Source: Betaproteobacteria bacterium (GTDB lineage: Bacteria > Pseudomonadota > Gammaproteobacteria > Burkholderiales > Burkholderiaceae_F). Taken from it: 64,000 bases of DNA. Both the position numbers and the translations under genes were made by a program. The notes under the pieces are model-generated. The model made no database searches and had not been told where the DNA came from. It worked only from the letters and a program-made list of their open reading frames with translations. Numbering within the stretch: position 1 is the stretch's first letter; every line of letters starts with the position of its first letter. Location of the stretch: contig VBCK01000132.1 in NCBI GenBank assembly GCA_005882215.1, positions 1 through 64,000 on the forward strand, written 5' to 3'. Below, piece after piece: positions 44,851 through 56,563 of this stretch.

Positions 44851-45849
44851 CTAAGCGCGGCGCAGCTCGAACAGCGGCTGCAGCGACCCGACCGTCAGGC
44901 CCCGGTAATTGTTCAACGCTGGCCGAAAGACCCGGGCGAGCGGACTGTCGGCCGGCTTGGCCAGAAGCCCTATCTGGAACAGCACCTCGGCAGTGACGGT
45001 GTGCAGTGCGCGCGCGTTGCCGTCGGCGATTCGCACCGCGATTCCCAGCCCGCGCGAACGCACCCCAATCGCCTGCACGCCATCGGCCCCCGCCTTGGCG
45101 ATCCAGTCGCCGCCGCCGGCCCGCGCCAGCGCCAGATCGATCCGCGCCGTGCCCGATACCAGGTCCGGGTGGCGCAACATCGCGTAGCGCAGCGCGCTCA
45201 GCGCCTTGTCTTCGCCGGCGGCCAGCCGCGCATAAGCCTGCGCCAGGCGCACCAGCGGCAACGCGTAGTTCGGAGCGCTGCAGCCATCGATCCCCGACTC
45301 GATCGGGCCCGTTTCGGCGAACTGCTGCACCGTGTTGCGGACCCGCACCTGCAACGCCGATTCGGGCGCCAGGTAGTCGGCCAGCCGGTGGCGGTGCAGC
45401 CGGCAGTAGGCGAGAAAGCCCGCGTGCTTGCCGGAGCAGTTGTGGTGCAGCGCGCTGAAGCGGGCTCGCGGCGGCACCGGCTCGCCGGTGGCCGCGTAGT
45501 AGAGCGGCGGGTGGCAGCCGCATTGCAGATCGGTCTCGCGGGCGCCGACGCGCGCCAGCATCCGCTGCACGATCCGCACGTGGACCGCTTCGCCGCTGTG
45601 GCTGGCGCACATCAGCGCCACTTCGTGCGATCCGAATCCGAAGCGGGCCGGACCGTCGTCCTCGACGAACGGCAGCGCCTGCAGCGGCTTGAGCGCGGAG
45701 CGTGCGAAGTTCAGCGCCTGGACGTCGCCCAGACCGAAAACGAGGTCGCCGCGCAGGTCACACACCGCGATCGAGCCGTGATGCACGCACTCGATCGCGC
45801 GCCCTCGCGTCGTGACCATCAGCGGCACGTGAGCCGGAACTGCGCTCAT
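44851..45849 (-). CDS. L-asparaginase, class 3 (rhizobial type)
   Basis: Hydrolyses asparagine to aspartate and ammonia. The 332-residue protein matches the Rhizobium etli ReAV-type family, unrelated to bacterial types I/II. Catalytic and structural residues seen: FARSALKPLQ with Ser51 and Lys54, MCASHSGEAVH with Ser83/Ser85, HHNCSGKHAGF with Cys138 and Lys141, GIDGCSAPNYALPL with Cys190, and WIAKAGADGVQAIG with the second Lys. Cytoplasmic; no signal peptide. Its 3' end is 9 bp from the convergent binding-protein gene. Confidence 0.88.
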   Translation of the reverse strand: MSAVPAHVPLMVTTRGRAIECVHHGSIAVCDLRGDLVFGLGDVQALNFARSALKPLQALPFVEDDGPARFGFGSHEVALMCASHSGEAVHVRIVQRMLARVGARETDLQCGCHPPLYYAATGEPVPPRARFSALHHNCSGKHAGFLAYCRLHRHRLADYLAPESALQVRVRNTVQQFAETGPIESGIDGCSAPNYALPLVRLAQAYARLAAGEDKALSALRYAMLRHPDLVSGTARIDLALARAGGGDWIAKAGADGVQAIGVRSRGLGIAVRIADGNARALHTVTAEVLFQIGLLAKPADSPLARVFRPALNNYRGLTVGSLQPLFELRRA

Positions 45850-45914
45850 CTAGCGCGATCGGATCGCGCCGGCATCGCCCCCACGAACGCCGGCGCAGCA
45901 GCGATCCCCGGCCT

Positions 45915-46754
45915 TCAGGCCGGCGACGATGTCAACTCCTTGCGATACCGGTTCAAGTCCTGCACGGTTTCGAACGTACGCTCGAACAGCAGGCTCAGGT
46001 TATGCAGAATGCGCTTGACCACGCGCGTCTCCCATTGCGCATCGAACCGGATCTGCTGGTCAAGCCAGCGGTCCAGCCATCCGGGATCGGGCAGCCGCGA
46101 TTGCACCGTGTCCCTCGGATACAGGCGCCGGTTCACATGCAGATTGGTCGGGTGCAGCGCCCGGTCGGTGCGGCGGGCGCTCGCCATCAGCACGCCGATC
46201 CTGGCGAACGCGGCGCGCGCGGTATCGCCCAGTTCGGCCAGATGCTTCTTCATGTAGCGCAGGTAGGCCCCGCCGTGCCGTGCCTCGTCCTGCGACAGCA
46301 GCTGGTAGATGTGGCAAATCACCGGTTCCGTATGCCATTCCGCGGCGCACCGGTACCAGTGGTTCAGGCGCACTTCGCCGCAGAAATGCAGCATCAGCGT
46401 TTCGAGCGCCGGCGCCGGATCGAATTCGAAGCGCACGTTGTGCAGTTCCTGGCGGGTCGGCACCAGATGCGGGCGGAAGCGGCGCAGGTACTCGATCAGC
46501 ACCAGCGAATGCTTCTGCTCCTCGAAGAACCACACCGAGATGAAGGCGGAGAAGTCCGAATCGTCCCGGTTGTCGCGCAGGAACATCTCGGTGGCGGGCA
46601 GCGCCGCCCATTCGGTGATCGCGTTCATCTTGATCGTCACCGCCTGGTCTTCGGTGAGCCGCGCGCCGTCGAATCGGTTCCAAGGGATGTCCGTTTCCAT
46701 GTTCCAGCGGACGGCTTCGAACGACTTGAACAGGTCCGGATAGAGCATGTCCAT
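45915..46754 (-). CDS. Ferritin-like diiron protein (acyl-ACP desaturase-like)
   Basis: A 279-residue helical protein with two metal motifs of a diiron carboxylate fold: Glu48 (AITEWAALP) and EEQKH at 78-82, then Glu127 (FCGEVRLNHW) and DEARHGG at 156-162. The (E, ExxH) pairs at this spacing resemble acyl-ACP desaturases and R2-like ferritins. No signal peptide. The ATG at 46754 has GGGAG seven bases upstream. Nothing in the neighbourhood gives the substrate. folE2 lies about 90 bp upstream on the same strand. Confidence 0.68.
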   Translation of the reverse strand: MDMLYPDLFKSFEAVRWNMETDIPWNRFDGARLTEDQAVTIKMNAITEWAALPATEMFLRDNRDDSDFSAFISVWFFEEQKHSLVLIEYLRRFRPHLVPTRQELHNVRFEFDPAPALETLMLHFCGEVRLNHWYRCAAEWHTEPVICHIYQLLSQDEARHGGAYLRYMKKHLAELGDTARAAFARIGVLMASARRTDRALHPTNLHVNRRLYPRDTVQSRLPDPGWLDRWLDQQIRFDAQWETRVVKRILHNLSLLFERTFETVQDLNRYRKELTSSPA

Positions 46755-46847
46755 ATCGCGTCTCCCGCTGGACAGTCCGCCGAAAGATTCCACGAGCCGC
46801 TTATCGAGGCCAGGCTCGCCCCGCTGGCCGGGCAGTGCCTTCAGCGG

Positions 46848-47651
46848 CTAGCCGGCCGTGCGCTTGTCATGCGCGATCATTGCATAGGCCGAGTGATTGT
46901 GTATCGACTCGAAATTCTCGCATTCGACCGTGTACGCGATCACGCGGCCGTCTCCGTTCAGCTCCAACGCCACGTCGCGCACGACGTCTTCGACGAACTT
47001 CGGATTGTCGTACGCGCGCTCGGTCACGTATTTCTCGTCGGGCCGCTTCAGCAGCGCCCACACTTCGCACGAACCCGAGCTCTCGGCGATCCGGATCTGC
47101 TCGTCGAGCGCCAGAGCCGATGCCAGTTCCACCTGAACCGTCACGTGCGAGCGCTGGTTGTGCGCGCCGTAGTCCGAGATCCGCTTGCTGCACGGGCACG
47201 CGCTGGTGACCGGGACGACGACTTTCTGCGTCAGCGACAGCGCTGCGCCCGAAGCGCGGGCCGCCAGAGTGACGTCGTAGTCCATCAGGCTCTCGACTCC
47301 ACTGACCGGGGCCGTCTTGTTGACGAAGTAGGCAAAGCGGGCCTCGATCGAGCCGCTGGAAGCCTCGAGGCGCTGCAACATCGATCGCACCAGCGAACCC
47401 ACCACCGCGGCCGAGAGCGGCTCGCGGTTTTCCTGCAGCACCGCGATGAAGCGCGACATGTGCGTGCCCTTCTGGTGGGCCGGCAGCCCGACGAACATGT
47501 CGATCGAGGCCACCGCCGGCTGCGGGCCGCGCGCAGAGGCGATCGTCACCGGGTGGCGGATCGCGCGCACGCCGACCTGCTGAATGGCCAGTTGCCGCAG
47601 ATCGGCCGACGACTGCACATCGGGCAGGAAGAGCGAATCCGGAGCGTTCAT
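46848..47651 (-). CDS. folE2: GTP cyclohydrolase FolE2 (type IB)
   Basis: Converts GTP to 7,8-dihydroneopterin triphosphate, first step of folate/pterin synthesis. The 267-residue protein has the FolE2 markers [15 protein letters not shown] near residue 55, [20 protein letters not shown] near 145 (metal Cys) and [16 protein letters not shown] near 240. FolE2 tolerates several metals and often works under zinc limitation. It faces the CarH/LitR-like gene across 285 bp, so its expression may be light or B12 controlled. Confidence 0.93.
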
Positions 47652-47899
47652 CAGCTGGCAGGACCTTCGTTCCGCGTCCAGTTTGGGTTCAGGTCGAAGC
47701 GGTCGAGTTTGCCGCAGCCCCCTCGTTTTCGCAAACCGCGCCGCTGGGATGCCGCGGCGCGGTCGCTGTGTGCCTGGCGCTTACGTGCCTTGGACAAACG
47801 CCCGCCGATTGGCCGATCCGCGCGCGCGTTACGCCGGCACTAGCCAAGCGACCAGCCAAAAGCCGTATCGTTACCCCTGCAGCGTGATACGCTAGAGTC

Positions 47900-47923
47900 G
47901 ATAGATTGTCGTGGACAGATAGA
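47900..47923. promoter_or_regulatory. Candidate operator between folE2 and the B12 regulator
   Basis: GATAGA occurs twice 18 bp apart (47900-47905 and 47918-47923), flanking TGTC-GTG-GACA (47907-47917), a small inverted repeat. It lies just upstream of the regulator's ATG at 47937. It might be the regulator's own binding site; I cannot match it to a known CarH/LitR consensus. The remaining interval 47652-47899 has no visible gene. Confidence 0.3.
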
Positions 47924-47936
47924 CGCTGACCTCGCC

Positions 47937-48881
47937 ATGAACGATGCGGTTCCCGACTCCGCCGGCGGTGCATTCGGAATCGCCGCGGTCGAACGCGACA
48001 CCGGACTGAGCAAGGACACGCTGCGGGTCTGGGAGCGCCGCTATCGCTTCCCACTCCCGGCCCGGGACCCTTCCGGCGAGCGCGTCTATTCACGTCAGGA
48101 CGTCGAGAAGCTCCGGGTGTTGAAACGGCTGCTCGATCAGGGCCATCGGCCCGGCAAGGTGATCGGGCTGGCCATGGAGCAACTCGAGCGGCTGGCCGAC
48201 TCGGCCGCCCCTCACGCAGCCCGACGCGCCGAGGTGGCGCGTTTGCACGGCGGCCTGGACGTGTACCTGGACCTGATTCGCCAGCACCGGGTCGAGGAGC
48301 TACGCCGGCAGCTCTCGCAGTCGTTGTTGCGCATCGGGCTGGCGCGCTTCGTGTCTGAAGCCGTGTCGCCGCTGAACGAGCTGGTCGGCGACGCCTGGGC
48401 CCGCGGTCGGCTGGAAATCTACGAAGAACACCTGTACACCGAATCGATCCAGGTGGTGTTGCGCAATGCGATCAGCTCGATCCCGCGCCCGGGCAGCCGG
48501 CCCCCGGTCGTGCTGCTGACCACCTTCCCGCAGGAGTCTCACGGACTCGGACTGCTGATGGCCGAGGCGTTCTTCGCGCTGGAAGGATGCCGATGCGTGT
48601 CGCTGGGCGTTCAGACGCCCCTGCTGGATATCGTGAGGGCGGCAGCGGTGCAGCGCGTGGATATCGCCGCGCTGTCGTTCAGCGAAGCCTTGAACCCGAA
48701 CCAGGTGATCGACGGGATCGTGGAGTTGCGCAGCAAGCTTCCGCCGGTCACGGCGATCTGGGTCGGCGGATCGTGCTCGGCGCTCGTGCGGCGCGTACCG
48801 GCAGACGTGTTGGCGCTGCGGTCGCTGAACGACATCGCGCCGGCCCTTGCCACCTGGCGCAGCACGCACCGGTCGACCTAG
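47937..48881 (+). CDS. MerR-type regulator with B12-binding photoreceptor domain (CarH/LitR-like)
   Basis: A 314-residue protein. Residues about 13-80 form a MerR helix-turn-helix (FGIAAVERDTGLSKDTLRVW and YSRQDVEKLRVLKRLLDQG). Residues about 100-180 are the four-helix cap with Trp154 and EEH at 163-165 (DAWARGRLEIYEEHLYTES). Residues about 190-300 are a cobalamin domain with E200-x-H202-x-x-G205, exactly 41 residues, SFS at 247-249, 27 residues, then GG at 277-278. That spacing is the reported CarA/CarH signature, in which adenosylcobalamin binds in the dark and light breaks the tetramer and derepresses target genes. It starts at ATG 47937, divergent to folE2. Confidence 0.85.
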   Translation: MNDAVPDSAGGAFGIAAVERDTGLSKDTLRVWERRYRFPLPARDPSGERVYSRQDVEKLRVLKRLLDQGHRPGKVIGLAMEQLERLADSAAPHAARRAEVARLHGGLDVYLDLIRQHRVEELRRQLSQSLLRIGLARFVSEAVSPLNELVGDAWARGRLEIYEEHLYTESIQVVLRNAISSIPRPGSRPPVVLLTTFPQESHGLGLLMAEAFFALEGCRCVSLGVQTPLLDIVRAAAVQRVDIAALSFSEALNPNQVIDGIVELRSKLPPVTAIWVGGSCSALVRRVPADVLALRSLNDIAPALATWRSTHRST

Positions 48882-48883
48882 GC

Positions 48884-49507
48884 TCAGGACGGTTTCCGGG
48901 CGGACTTGCCTTCCGGCGGCGGTTGCGGCGCCTCTGCAGGCCACTTTGGCCGCACGGCGTCGGCCTTGCCTTCAGCGGGCGGATCGGCAGCAGCGGGTTG
49001 CTGCGCCGCTGCCGATGCGACGCGAGCGAACTGCTCATGCAGCGCGTTCCACCACTGCGACGGGTCAAAGGCCAGCGGCTGGGCGCCCGCCGGGGGGTCG
49101 CCGCGCGCCTGGGCGGCCGGATCGGGGCCGACATTGCCGGTGCTTGCGACCGACGGGCCGGCCTGCGCGGAGCGCGCCATCGACTGCAGCGCGACGATCG
49201 CGTTGCGCTGCATCTCCAGCGTCTGGATCGTGGAGTGCAGCAACGCGCGGTTCATGTCGAGCCAGTGCTCGACCGTGCGCAGGTCGGTGATCCGCTTTTC
49301 GAGCTCCTTCGGATCGAGCGTCGGCATCAGCATCGAAGGCATGCCCACGGGCAGCGGCGGTTGAGCCCCGAACAGCGATTCGGCGCCGGCCGCCGAAGCC
49401 GCTGCCGGGTTGCCCCACATGCGGGCCATCCACTGCAGCGACTCGTTCATGTTGTTCGCGAGCGATTCCGCAAGCGGCATTCCAGCCAGGGGATTCGGAT
49501 CGGCCAT
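48884..49507 (-). CDS. phaM: PHA granule regulatory protein PhaM
   Basis: A 207-residue PhaM-like protein. The conserved core is MPTLDPKELEKRITDLRTVE then HWLDMNRALLHSTIQTLEMQ near residues 60-100, which matches PhaM of betaproteobacteria. The N-terminus is rich in Met and Pro, and the C-terminal tail (PPPEGKSARKPS) is basic, in keeping with the DNA-binding tail of the Ralstonia protein. PhaM activates PHA synthase and tethers granules to the nucleoid. It is shorter than the ~260-residue Ralstonia protein. No phaC in the window other than a possible relative at the left end. Confidence 0.85.
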   Translation of the reverse strand: MADPNPLAGMPLAESLANNMNESLQWMARMWGNPAAASAAGAESLFGAQPPLPVGMPSMLMPTLDPKELEKRITDLRTVEHWLDMNRALLHSTIQTLEMQRNAIVALQSMARSAQAGPSVASTGNVGPDPAAQARGDPPAGAQPLAFDPSQWWNALHEQFARVASAAAQQPAAADPPAEGKADAVRPKWPAEAPQPPPEGKSARKPS

Positions 49508-49578
49508 TGGATTGAGCCTCCTGCGTTCGGATCGACCGTTGAGGACCCCGGTATCTTATTCTCCCTGTCGTGTCCTCG

Positions 49579-50790
49579 ATGCCCCTGACGTACGGCGGTG
49601 CGAGCCTGGCGCCGCGGGCCGGTGTCGCGCTCGTGCTGGCCGTCCTGATTCACCTGTCGGCATGGCAGACGCTGGCGGGCATCCGGGTATTGCTGCCGCG
49701 GCGCGAGCCACCGCCCCCGATGATCGACGTTGCGCTGCTGCCGCCGCCGCAGACTCCGATCGCATTGCCCGCTCGCCGCGCCGTGGTCCGGGCCCTCACG
49801 GCCCGACGCCGCGGGCCCACGAGCGTCGAGGCCACGCCGTTGACGGCGGTCCGCACGGGTGCGTCGGGCCGACCCGGCCCGACCCGCGCTGCTGCGCCGG
49901 CGCCCGAGGCGCGAACGCAACAGCCTGTGCCCGCCTCTGGGCAATCGGCTGCGCCAAAGACCAGCGACATCGCGACTGCGGCCCCCCCGCCATCGGGACC
50001 CGGTGCGGCGTCCGACCAACCCGTCGCGACGGCTGCGCCGGCCGAAACGGCGCCTGCGCCTGAGCCGGTGTCGGCCGCCGCCTCGGCGGCCCCGGAGCCG
50101 CCGCCACGCTCGCCGCCGGGGCACGCTGCGGTGCAGGTGATGCTGCCGAAGTCGGCCCGCTTGGTCTACCAGTCCTATGGGACGGTTCGCGTCGGAGGCT
50201 TCATGCTCGGAGTGCGCGGGCGCACCACGACACGCTGGCGGTTTCAGAACGGGCACTACCAGTCGGACCTGAGCATCGATGTCGTGAATTTCGTCGAGTC
50301 GTCGCAGGGCCTGTTCGATCCCGATTTTGGCCTGGAGCCCGAGCGATATTCCGAGACCCGCCCTCGCCGTCCGGTATCGACCACCCAATTCGACTGGGCC
50401 AACCGCCGCGTCACCTTCACCGAGGACAATCGACAGGGAGAGGCCGAACCCGGAACGCAGGATCGACTGAGCGTGCAGTTCCAGCTGTCGGTACTGCGGC
50501 AGGTCTACCCGGAGCGTTTCGTCCGCGGCAGCGTGGTACCGATCACGCTGGCCGGCACGCGCGACGTCAGCCACTGGACCTTCACGGTGACCGGGGAGGA
50601 AATCGTCGATTCCGGGCTCGGCCACCTGCCGGCGCTGCGCGTGCTGTCGAACCGCACCACCGCGTCCGGCGATGAATCGCTCGAGGTCTGGATCAGCGAG
50701 AAGCTGAACTGGTTCCCGGTCCGGATCCGGATCATCGACAAGAATCGCAACATGATCGACTCGGTGCTGGACGAAGCGACGATCGATTGA
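49579..50790 (+). CDS. DUF3108 membrane-anchored protein
   Basis: A roughly 403-residue protein. One transmembrane helix near the start (GVALVLAVLIHLSAWQTLA) resembles a TonB-type anchor, a ~120-residue Pro/Ala-rich linker follows, and the C-terminal domain (from about residue 195: SARLVYQSYGTVRVGGFMLG) has DUF3108 features including DLSIDVVNFVESSQGLFDPD and EVWISEKLNWFPVRIRIIDK. The domain faces the periplasm. Function unknown. A GTG at 49570 could add three residues. Divergent from phaM with about 70 bp between. Confidence 0.75.
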   Translation: MPLTYGGASLAPRAGVALVLAVLIHLSAWQTLAGIRVLLPRREPPPPMIDVALLPPPQTPIALPARRAVVRALTARRRGPTSVEATPLTAVRTGASGRPGPTRAAAPAPEARTQQPVPASGQSAAPKTSDIATAAPPPSGPGAASDQPVATAAPAETAPAPEPVSAAASAAPEPPPRSPPGHAAVQVMLPKSARLVYQSYGTVRVGGFMLGVRGRTTTRWRFQNGHYQSDLSIDVVNFVESSQGLFDPDFGLEPERYSETRPRRPVSTTQFDWANRRVTFTEDNRQGEAEPGTQDRLSVQFQLSVLRQVYPERFVRGSVVPITLAGTRDVSHWTFTVTGEEIVDSGLGHLPALRVLSNRTTASGDESLEVWISEKLNWFPVRIRIIDKNRNMIDSVLDEATID

Positions 50791-52243: not shown

Positions 52244-53511
52244 TCACTCCAGGGGCCAAAGCGGAACCAGGTTCGGCAGTGTGTGAAACACGCGCGACAA
52301 CGCGCCTCCGGTCACAAGGGCGGTTGCCCGCTCGATGTCGTCGGCCAGCGGGCGGTCCTGACGCAGCGGCTGGCACACGTCGCGCACCAGTCCGTGCGCC
52401 AGCTCCAGCGCGAACGAGCTGCGCAACGGCCTGAGAAACTCGATACCCTGCGCAGCCGCGAGCAGCTCGATGCCGAGGATATGGGCCGTGTTGGAAATCA
52501 TCGCTTGCAGACGGCGCGCCGCGAAGCAGGCCATGGAAACGTGATCCTCCTGGTTGGCCGAGGTCGGCAGCGAGTCGACGCTCGCCGGGTGCGCCAGCGA
52601 TTTGTTCTCGCTCGCCAGGGCGGCCGCGGTAACGTGAGCCACCATGAAGCCCGAATGCAGTCCGGCCTCGCCGGTCAGAAAGGGCGGCAGGCGCGAGACC
52701 GCGCTGTCGATCAGCATCGCGATGCGCCGTTCGGCGATCGCGCCGACCTCGGCGATCGCCACTGCGCAGGCATCGGCCGTCAGCGCGACCGGCTCCGCGT
52801 GGAAATTGCCGCCCGACACCAGTGCGTCGTCCGCGACAAACACGAGCGGGTTATCGGTCACTGCGTTGGCCTCCCGCAGCAACACATCCGCCGCGTGGCG
52901 CAGCTGGTCCAGGCAGGCGCCGACGACCTGCGGCTGGCATCGCAGGCAATACGGATCCTGCACCCGGTCATCCCCTCGATGCCGGCGGCCTGAAGCAGCG
53001 GCAAAGCTTCCTTGCGCTCGCCGTCGGCCCACATGTAGCCCTCGCCGATCAGCGCCAGCGCCATATGCGCGAGCGGCGCCAGGTCCCCGGAGGCGCCCAC
53101 CGAGCCCTGGCCCGGCACATGAGCGATCAAACCCGCGTTGTGAACCGCGATCAGCGCGTCGACGACTTGCTCGCGCACTCCCGAGTAGCCCCGCGCCAGG
53201 CTGGCCGCTTTCAGTGCGAGCATCAGCCGCACGATGGCGGGCGCCAGCGGCTCGCCGACGCCGGCGCAGTGCGAGCGCACCAGATTCAGTTGCAAGGCGT
53301 CGACCTGTTCGCGGCTGATCGACCGGCTGGCGAGTTTGCCGAAACCCGTGTTCACGCCGTAGACGGGCCGCTCGCCCTGCGCCGCGCGCTGGACCAGATC
53401 GGCGCTCGCACGGATCCAGGAGCGCGCCGTCTCGTCGATCTCCAGCGGCGTGCGCGCGGTGTGGATCGCCTGCAACTGCTCCAGCGTCAAATGGCCAGGC
53501 TCGAGGATCAT
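52244..53511 (-). pseudogene. hutH: Histidine ammonia-lyase with internal frame-shifting deletion
   Basis: The first 180 codons (53511 down to about 52972) are a normal Hut[19 protein letters not shown] near residue 50, and the MIO-forming ASGDL at 140-144 in [20 protein letters not shown]. The reading then continues in another frame from about 52963 with [20 protein letters not shown], then [15 protein letters not shown] and [10 protein letters not shown], to the C-terminus (239 codons). Intact enzymes have about 510 residues; the joined halves give about 420. About 90 residues are lost, including the NGTQ segment that supplies active-site Asn, and the frame is shifted. Neither half would work alone. 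Confidence 0.85.
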
Positions 53512-53576: not shown

Positions 53577-55280
53577 TCAAGCGGGCCGCATCGGCAACTT
53601 CAGTTCGAACCGGCGGGCGCAGGCGATAGCGTCCGGATAACCGGCGTCGGCGTGCCGGATCACCCCGCTGGCCGGATCGTTCCACAGAACGCGCTCGATC
53701 CGGCGCGCCGCCGCTTCGCTGCCGTCGCACACGATCACGACCCCGGCATGCTGCGAGTAGCCCATCCCGACCCCTCCCCCATGATGCAGCGAGACCCAGG
53801 TCGCGCCCGAGGCCGTGTTCAGCATCGCATTGAGCAGCGGCCAGTCGGACACCGCGTCGGAGCCGTCGCGCATCGCTTCGGTCTCGCGGTTGGGCGAGGC
53901 GACCGAACCGGCGTCCAGGTGATCGCGGCCGATCACGATCGGCGCCGTGAGCTCCCCGCTTGCAACCATCTGGTTGAATGCCAGCCCGGCACGCTGGCGC
54001 TCGCCCAGGCCGAGCCAGCAGATCCGCGCCGGCAGCCCCTGGAAGGCGATCCGTTCGGAAGCCATATCGAGCCAGCGGTGCAGATGCCGGTCGTCCGGGA
54101 ACAACTCCTTCAGTCTGGCATCGGTGCGACGTATGTCCTGCGGGTCGCCGGACAGCGCGACCCAGCGAAACGGCCCCTTGCCCACGCAAAAGAGCGGCCG
54201 GATGTAGGCCGGAACGAAACCCGGAAATTCGAATGCGTCGGCAACGCCGTGGTCGAACGCGACCTGGCGGATGTTGTTGCCGTAGTCGAACACCGGAACG
54301 CCGAGAGAGCGCAAGTCGAGCATCGCGCGCACATGCACCGCGCAGCTGTCCGCCGCGGCGCGCTGCAGCATCTCGTGCTGCCGCGGATCGGCCTGCGCCG
54401 CGCGCCAGCGTTCCACGCTCCAGCCGACCGGCAGGTAGCCGTTGATCAGGTCGTGGGCGGAGGTCTGGTCGGTGACCAGGTCCGGCCTCAAACCGCCCGC
54501 TCGCGCGCGGCGGGCCAGTTCCGGCAGCAACTCGGCCGCATTGCCCAGCAGACCGATCGAGCGGGCCTGCCGCTCGCGCGTGGCCTGCCCGATCCGGGCC
54601 AGCGCGTCGTCCAGATCGCGCGCTTCTTCATCCAGGTAGCGGGTGCGCAGGCGCGCCTCGATGCGCGAGCGCTGGCATTCGATCGTCAGCGAGGAGGCGC
54701 CGGCCATGCCGGCCGCGAGCGGCTGCGCGCCGCCCATGCCGCCCAGTCCCGCCGTCAGGATCCACCGGCCGGCCAGATCGCCGCCGTAGTGCTGCCGGCC
54801 CGCCTCGCAGAAGGTCTCGAAAGTGCCTTGCACGATTCCCTGGCTGCCGATGTAGATCCAGGAGCCGGCGGTCATCTGGCCGAACATCATCAGGCCCTTG
54901 CGATCCAGCTCGTGGAAATGTTCCCAGGTGGCCCAGCGCGGCACCAGGTTGGAGTTGGCGATCAGCACGCGCGGCGCGTCCGCGTGCGTGCGCACGACGC
55001 CCACGGGCTTGCCCGATTGCACCAGCAGCGTCTCGTCTTCTTCGAGGCCGCGCAGCGCCGACACAATCGCGCGGAAGCAGTCCCAGTTGCGCGCGGCCTT
55101 GCCGATTCCTCCATAGACCACAAGCCGCTGCGGATCTTCGGCAACCTCCGGATCCAGATTGTTCTGGATCATCCGGTAGGCGGCCTCGATCAGCCAGTTG
55201 CGGCAGGTCAGCGCGCTGCCACGCGGGGACTTCACCGGCGCATCGAGCACCGGGCCGTCAGGATCGGGCCGGTCGGTCAT
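53577..55280 (-). CDS. hutU: Urocanate hydratase
   Basis: Second step of histidine breakdown: urocanate to imidazolonepropionate with tightly bound NAD+. The 567-residue protein is full length. Motifs are [57 protein letters not shown] near residue 130, [20 protein letters not shown] near 170 (NAD site), [20 protein letters not shown] near 345, and [17 protein letters not shown] near 495. ATG 55280 is used; a TTG at 55292 is possible. Divergent from hutI with 74 bp between. Confidence 0.94.
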
Positions 55281-55354
55281 CGAAAGATTCAACCCGCAAT
55301 GAATGCTTGGGGCACTGTACTTGTCCGGACCCCGCGCGGCAATTAGGATCCATC

Positions 55355-56563
55355 ATGGGTTCGACGCTGTGGCGCAATGCGCGCCTCGCCACGCTGACCG
55401 GTCGCTCGCCTTGGGGTTTGATCGACCGAGGCGCTCTGCTGGTGAAGGGCGCTTGTTTGCACTGGATTGGACGCGAATTAGACCTCGGCTCAGGCCTGGA
55501 TATCGAAGTTGAGCATGACCTCGGCGGTGCGCTGGTTACACCGGGACTGATCGATGCGCACACGCACCTGATCTATGCAGGCCAACGCGCATCCGAATTC
55601 GAGCTGCGGCTCCAAGGCGCCTCTTACGAGCAGATCGCGCAGGCAGGCGGCGGGATCCGATCCACGGTGGCCGCCACGCGGTTGGCCAGCGACGAGGGCC
55701 TGTTTGCCAGTGCCGCTGCCCGGCTCGATCGGCTGCGGGCCGAAGGCGTCACGACGGTCGAGATCAAGTCCGGCTACGGACTGTCCCTGGAACACGAACG
55801 GCGCTGCCTGCAGGTGGCCCGGCGCCTCGGGCGCGAGCGCGGCGTGGACGTGCGCACCACCTGTCTGGCCGCACACGCGTTGCCGCCGGAGTTCGATGGC
55901 CGCGCCGACGACTACATCGACGCGGTGTGTGGCTGGCTGCCTCAATTGCACGCGGAGTCCCTGGTCGATGCGGTGGACGCGTACTGCGAGCGTATCGCGT
56001 TCAGCCGCGAGCAGACGGCTCGGGTGTTCGAGCAGGCGCGACGCCTGGGCTTGCCCGTGAAGCTGCATGCCGAGCAGTTCAGCGACTGCGGGGGCGTGGC
56101 GTTGGCGGCGAGCTATCGTGCGCTGTCGTGTGATCACCTGGAGTACGTCGGCGCCGAGGGCGTGGCCGCGATGGCGTCTTCCGGCAGCGCGGCCGTCCTG
56201 CTGCCGGGTGCGTTCTACTTCCTGCGCGAGACCCGCGTGCCCCCGGTCGATGCCATGCGGCGGGCCGGCGTGCCGATCGCGATCGCCACCGACCACAATC
56301 CCGGGACCTCGCCCACGCTTTCGTTGCGGCTGATGTTGAACATGGCGTGCACGCTGTTCGGACTGACGCCCGAGGAGGCAGTGCGCGGTGTCACCGTGAA
56401 CGGCGCGCGCGCGCTCGGGCTGAGCGATCGCGGCCGACTGGCCGAGGGTCTGCGGGCCGATTTCGCCGTCTGGGATCTCGAGCATCCGGCAGAGCTCGCC
56501 TACTGGCTCGGGGGCAATCCTTGCCTGCGCGTCCTGTGCGGCGGAGTGCCGCTCGCGCTATGA
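55355..56563 (+). CDS. hutI: Imidazolonepropionase
   Basis: Third step: hydrolyses imidazolonepropionate to formiminoglutamate. It is 402 residues (family about 405). Amidohydrolase motifs are [18 protein letters not shown] (HxH), [20 protein letters not shown] near residue 130, [20 protein letters not shown] near 230 with metal His, and [18 protein letters not shown] near 305 with metal Asp. ATG 55355 has AGGA upstream; a longer frame is unconserved. It overlaps hutG by 4 bp (ATGA). The region between hutI and hutU contains TGTAC motifs but no clear HutC operator. Confidence 0.94.

Follow-up and report, generated by a model that had tools for sequence, protein, structure and literature searches.

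In the 64,000-nucleotide stretch of DNA analysed here (the window), folE2 is likely to be controlled, through light or B12, by a divergently oriented LitR/CarH-type regulator, since the divergent pairing of the two genes recurs among relatives and the two sites of a shared palindrome found in their gap rank first and second in the window. We consider it fairly probable that the regulator is a class I-like repressor, loaded with AdoCbl in the dark, of itself and of a folE2–diiron oxidase operon, and that it is released by light. The genes concerned are listed here.

47937..48881, plus strand: LitR/CarH-type regulator, 314 aa, with MerR HTH, four-helix cap and Rossmann B12 domain
46848..47651, minus strand: folE2, GTP cyclohydrolase IB, 267 aa, second GTP cyclohydrolase of the genome
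45915..46757, minus strand: AurF-like/acyl-ACP-desaturase-like diiron protein, which recurs as a regulator partner and lies 90 bp downstream of folE2
44851..45849, minus strand: L-asparaginase II-like gene, in the same order in the relative L001

Domain searches and structure modelling showed that the regulator is a MerR-type protein with a complete cobalamin-binding domain. The MerR HTH spans residues ~15-75, the four-helix cap ~108-180 and the Rossmann B12 domain ~190-311. The protein matched Pfam MerR_1 (PF13411) with an E value of 2.6e-12 and B12-binding_2 with 26.2 bits, exceeding the cut-off of 23, and its match to B12-binding reached 28.5 bits, under the cut-off of 32.1. The score against NCBIfam CarH was 122.8 bits (E 1.6e-35), far from the equivalog cut-off of 400, so the regulator is no CarH equivalog and is classed as LitR/CarH-like only. 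Sequence comparison with the chains 3whp/5c8d of Thermus thermophilus CarH (TtCarH) gave an E value of ~4e-28. The AlphaFold model (pLDDT 92, pTM 0.73) contained the HTH, the four-helix cap and a complete Rossmann domain, and its top PDB match by fold comparison was TtCarH 5c8e (E 3e-16). The recognition helix RxWERRY is R30-V-W-E-R-R-Y36 in the regulator, with R30, W32, E33, R35 and Y36 invariant across 40 rows. The MerR and B12 domains, the motif residues and the best structural match thus bear out the initial annotation, which had called the protein a CarH/LitR-like regulator.

The regulator resembles TtCarH, a class I LitR, in having MerR HTH, four-helix cap and Rossmann B12 domain as well as RxWERRY, Wx9EH and ExHxxG...GG. 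The mark of class II LitR, loss of the B12 Rossmann domain, was absent, as this domain is complete in the model and the CarH fold is matched. Class III is defined in PMC9758184 by a C-terminal part dissimilar to known functional domains; this mark was absent too, the C-terminal part of the regulator matching B12 domains. CarA of Myxococcus also combines MerR and B12 domains but is described as lacking the Trp of Wx9EH (PMC9304148), whereas the regulator keeps it as W154.

The B12 motif of the regulator reads E200-S-H202-G-L-G205, 41 residues, S247-F-S249, 27 residues, G277-G278, and the cap motif W154-x9-E164-H165; the spacing ExHxxG-x41-SxS-x27-GG and the Trp and EH cap residues that had been reported for it earlier proved exact on reading the sequence. 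Among 100 aligned regulators, the one in the window included, the Trp was conserved in 98, the Glu in 99, the cap His in 98, the axial His in 97, and the two residues of the GG pair in 94 and 100, respectively. The regulator fits the B12 motif given in PMC9304148, D/ExHx2G/P-x41-SxT/V-x22-27-GG, with the second Ser of SFS replacing T/V.

The equivalent of TtCarH His132 is Ala155 in the regulator. In TtCarH, His132 underlies the bis-His light state, and a His is present here in many, not all, CarH proteins. No His was found at this position in any of 103 regulators, which are relatives chosen by similarity to the window and do not stand for CarH in general; in 100 of them the residue was M in 25, A in 24, V in 11, T in 9, L in 8 and S in 7, with others in the rest. 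In one study, H132A TtCarH bound AdoCbl normally and was mostly still tetrameric after light, and the same paper cites an earlier study reporting disassembly (PMC10442372). CtMerR of Chloracidobacterium (8jbs/8jbt) likewise has a CarH-like cobalamin domain without His132, with Arg in its place, and its structures align to the regulator model with TMt 0.74-0.80, but it is distant in sequence (20-22%). The adenosyl group of CtMerR is still lost in light, and its authors suggest that other mechanisms may serve (PMC11796333). The light signature that SignatureFinder gave in that paper consists of GxxW, EH, GxxH and GxxxP; GxxW, EH and GxxxP are present in the regulator and GxxH differs. Unlike TtCarH, the regulator has not only Ala155 for His132 but also Gln (Q199) for the Gly of GxxH, a Gly that is found in 39/100 regulators and makes a main-chain contact in CtMerR (PMC11796333).

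Retention of the B12-binding residues, together with loss of the TtCarH light-state His from all 103 regulators, would suit a sensor of B12 status that does not sense light, in which DNA binding would depend solely on AdoCbl loading and cobalamin scarcity would induce folE2. We regard this explanation as unlikely: 98/100 regulators retain the Wx9EH Trp, a residue in contact with the adenosyl group in TtCarH, and CtMerR is described as light-responsive without this His (PMC11796333).

The gene at 46848-47651 is a true folE2, its product matching PF02649 with an E value of 8.3e-91 (304.5 bits, cut-off 25) and NCBIfam NF010200 with 280.1 bits, over the cut-off of 215. Regulator and folE2 diverge across a gap of 285 bp (47652-47936); both reading frames, and the claim in the initial annotation that the regulator faces folE2, were confirmed. 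The window genome (4.55 Mb in 302 contigs, 94% complete) contains one FolE2 and, at C200, one type-IA FolE, and folE2 is therefore its second GTP cyclohydrolase. The FolE2 type of this enzyme is held to tolerate zinc shortage.

A match to the regulator was present at E<=1e-20 in 100/300 genomes of the order Burkholderiales and at E<=0.001 in 26/61 genomes at the family level and around it. Neighbourhoods were compared in 103 loci, namely 100 stretches (a subset of the listed matches, with a few genomes contributing two), L002, the window and L001, a Burkholderiaceae MAG contig whose regulator is 91% identical to that of the window. The tblastn results showed folE2 beside the regulator in 41/103 loci, at most 1,085 bp away and divergent in 41/41, supporting the association of the two genes that had been proposed. 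The other neighbours in these loci were AmOx (amine oxidase, 72), Cfa/CMAS (70), DUF1365 (68), Chalcone_3 (58), MFS (52), GPx (37), AurF-like (36) and DPRP (22). A frequent gene order was MFS<Chalcone_3<Cfa<DUF1365<AmOx<FolE2<GPx<REG; the opposite side carried DPRP or AurF-like genes. By comparison of gene content, the neighbour set in relatives resembles the light-induced LitR genes of Pseudomonas, where the set of the class II LitR proteins PplR and PmlR2 is reported to include folE, UfaM, an FAD oxidoreductase and the photolyase gene phrB (PMC9758184). UfaO of furan fatty acid synthesis is described as containing DUF1365 (PMC7380195). Of the recurrent set, the window retains, within 6 kb, only FolE2 and the AurF-like gene.

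No match to PF03441 (FAD_binding_7, photolyase), PF04244 (DPRP) or DUF1365 (PF07103) was found in the window genome at its 94% completeness, and the earlier rationale that pterin synthesis would serve photolyase cofactors is thus unsupported there. The relatives differ from the window genome in this respect, DPRP adjoining the regulator in the 22 loci counted above. Photolyase-related and furan-lipid-type genes in the clusters of relatives argue against the B12-status explanation, in favour of which the lack of photolyase-family matches in the window genome can be counted. A PF01923 (PduO-type) adenosyltransferase gene is present in the window genome, and no adenosyltransferase of the PF02572 type was found in it.

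The diiron protein is 67-90% identical to its counterparts in 31 relatives and has EEQKH and DEARH motifs. Its model (pLDDT 89) gave a weak match to acyl-ACP desaturases (E 3.9e-4, TMq 0.59), and the protein may share a response with folE2 and oxidise a small molecule or a lipid in it. The AurF/acyl-ACP-desaturase-like diiron family as a whole adjoins such regulators at 36/103 loci. The L-asparaginase II-like gene is possibly the third gene of the folE2 operon. Elsewhere in the window, hutH (aromatic amino acid lyase; 52244-53511, minus strand) is split across two frames covering profile positions 1-173 and 257-465, either because the gene is broken or through an error of assembly. Its neighbours are hutU (53577-55292) and a hutI-like amidohydrolase (55307-56563).

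A FolE2 tree was built from 39 regulator-adjacent copies (L100 and L109 left out) and 40 others selected among the matches listed. The result showed that the regulator-adjacent copies cluster on the tree: the label, regulator-adjacent or other, changes 4 times, compared to ~26.7 times when shuffled, and a weakly supported branch (77/63) separates 38/39 regulator-adjacent copies and 6/40 others from the rest. G313, a genome with a regulator-adjacent copy (L108) and another one (L210), is an example: the two belong to separate clades. The sole FolE2 of five same-family genomes (L213, L217, L221, L222 and L230) groups with the regulator-adjacent type, and no regulator match was found there; perhaps the regulator was lost and FolE2 retained in these genomes.

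A shared palindrome, TTTGTCYWRGACAAA, first hinted at by GACAA-type words in short-word counts, recurs in the intergenic regions of the regulators. It was counted in 97 intergenics longer than 60 bases (from 100 regulators, 3 dropped), with 20 dinucleotide-shuffled sets as the control. Exact TTGTC-N3-GACAA occurred in 45/97 intergenics (shuffled mean 0.0, maximum 0), the same pattern with <=1 mismatch in 67/97 (shuffled mean 0.8, maximum 2) and with <=2 mismatches in 80/97 (shuffled mean 9.85, maximum 16). A symmetrised site matrix was made from 95 sites, the training set excluding both the window and its same-genus relative L001, and the following putative operators, neither assigned to a strand, were obtained in the gap.

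47904..47920: putative operator O1, GATTGTCGTGGACAGAT, matrix score 16.0, rank 1 in the window, with its end 16 bp short of the regulator start
47783..47799: putative operator O2, ACGTGCCTTGGACAAAC, weak, matrix score 9.0, rank 2 in the window

The third-best score in the 64-kb window was 4.98, outside the gap. In L001, the counterpart of O1 is AATTGTCGTAGACAATT and the O2 half-site CTTGGACAA is found too, the L001 sites scoring 22.0 and 10.5 with the same matrix. A site with a score of at least 9 lay between the genes in 35/39 folE2 loci examined, L100 and L109 being left out; the 4/39 without a counted site were L154, L174, L001 and L102, and in the last two the gap was computed as negative because the longest ORF was used, sites being visible in both by separate reading. 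Two sites lay 62-64 bp apart (~six helical turns) in 40/48 regions with two or more sites, and site pairs 63 apart enclosed the TTGAC-like and TATA-like elements of a leftward promoter. This spacing, seen in intergenics L075-L174, suggests looping or oligomer bridging. The window is an exception, with 121 bp between O1 and its weak O2.

The half-site TRGACA agrees with T(G/A)TACA of Pseudomonas as well as with the core T-n-n-ACA known for TtCarH. The TtCarH operator, with this core, is described as tandem 11-bp nAnnTnnACAn repeats (PMC8156234), whereas the element found here is the palindromic TTTGTCYWRGACAAA; no 11-bp repeat unit of the TtCarH type was found in the window gap, and two single matches were found in L001. 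An Rfam scan of 45800-49600 returned no family at the gathering threshold, which speaks against a riboswitch there.

The position of O1 right before the regulator start, together with the weakness of O2, leaves some room for a regulator that acts through O1 on its own gene only, folE2 using its own promoter near its start. Two blocks near folE2, GGTCGAG and TTTGCG (folE2 strand), are conserved between the window and L001, and no sigma-70-like promoter was resolved in 47600-48000, both of which would agree with such self-control. It is nevertheless rather improbable, as folE2 adjoins the regulator in 41/103 loci, always divergently, and O2 ranks second in the window and has a counterpart in L001.

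The loose palindrome pattern gave 19 rows at 15 distinct places in the window genome, with 3 and 1 in the control columns. A strong palindrome, AATTGTCGACGACAAAA, lies at L187 2000-2016 (G000 C162), with a score of 20.1, ~95 bp before a RibD_C gene. RibD_C was not adopted as a regulon member: the gene was found in only 2/31 genomes, its own included, and not in the same-genus genome, and the copy in G043 has no comparable palindrome. No genome-wide regulon is claimed from the bare palindrome.

In the class I-like reading that we favour, the regulator would bind AdoCbl via His202, Trp154, Glu164 and His165, and in the dark the AdoCbl-loaded oligomer would sit on O1 and, more weakly, on O2, between regulator and folE2, repressing the regulator gene and the leftward folE2–diiron oxidase operon. 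In the light, the Co-C bond would be cleaved and the complex, with Ala155, would rearrange without a bis-His lock and let go of the DNA. The released folE2 could then supply a second GTP cyclohydrolase and hence more pterin/folate during photo-oxidative stress. In favour of this reading stand the modelled fold, the near-invariant Wx9EH and B12 motifs, the wide occurrence and recurrent neighbours of the regulator, the palindrome, the clustering of regulator-adjacent FolE2 copies, the PF01923 gene and the Pseudomonas precedent. Weighing against it are Ala155 and Q199, the low NCBIfam CarH score, the lack of photolyase, DPRP and DUF1365 matches in the window genome, the unusual 121-bp spacing with a weak O2, and the failure to find a sigma-70-like promoter or the TtCarH repeat unit in the searched stretches.

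Control of folE by light through LitR is a known principle, published for Pseudomonas: in Pseudomonas putida and P. mendocina, light is reported to induce folE under class II LitR, and the system described in PMC9758184 is like the present one in having folE in its light-induced set and two operators about the promoter. It differs in that, of the B12 domains, class II LitR has only the four-helix part left, PmlR2 works with a LOV partner, the operator is TGTACA-N12-TGTACA and the target is FolE (type I), versus FolE2 here (PMC9758184). By this precedent and that of CarA (PMC9758184; PMC8156234), light might act through a partner protein, LOV for class II LitR and CarS for CarA, cobalamin being structural or unused, and loss of the bis-His residue from the regulators points the same way. 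We judge such a switch quite improbable, given that the axial His and Wx9EH are strongly conserved and that no LOV domain was found by Pfam in 20 neighbour-cluster representatives, a scan that excluded ORFs <70 aa and two clusters among the first 24. For the class I-like repressor preferred here, the neighbour is folE2, whereas PMC10442372 presents CarH of T. thermophilus as regulating carotenoids. No report of a B12-type LitR/CarH paired with FolE2 was found in the open-licence PMC literature.

A broader proposal, which we put forward only tentatively, is a Burkholderiales-wide clade of B12 repressors that sense light without bis-His ligation and have a palindrome of their own, usually doubled six turns apart about the leftward promoter, the regulon in this genus being reduced to light induction of FolE2 and the diiron oxidase. 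If the control of folE2 holds, B12 photoreception would reach beyond carotenoids to pterin/folate supply, and a large natural clade would function without the His deemed critical in recent TtCarH structural work; such a clade makes the need for bis-His ligation in the CarH light response testable. The putative operator could be used to map the presumed light regulon across many Burkholderiales genomes.
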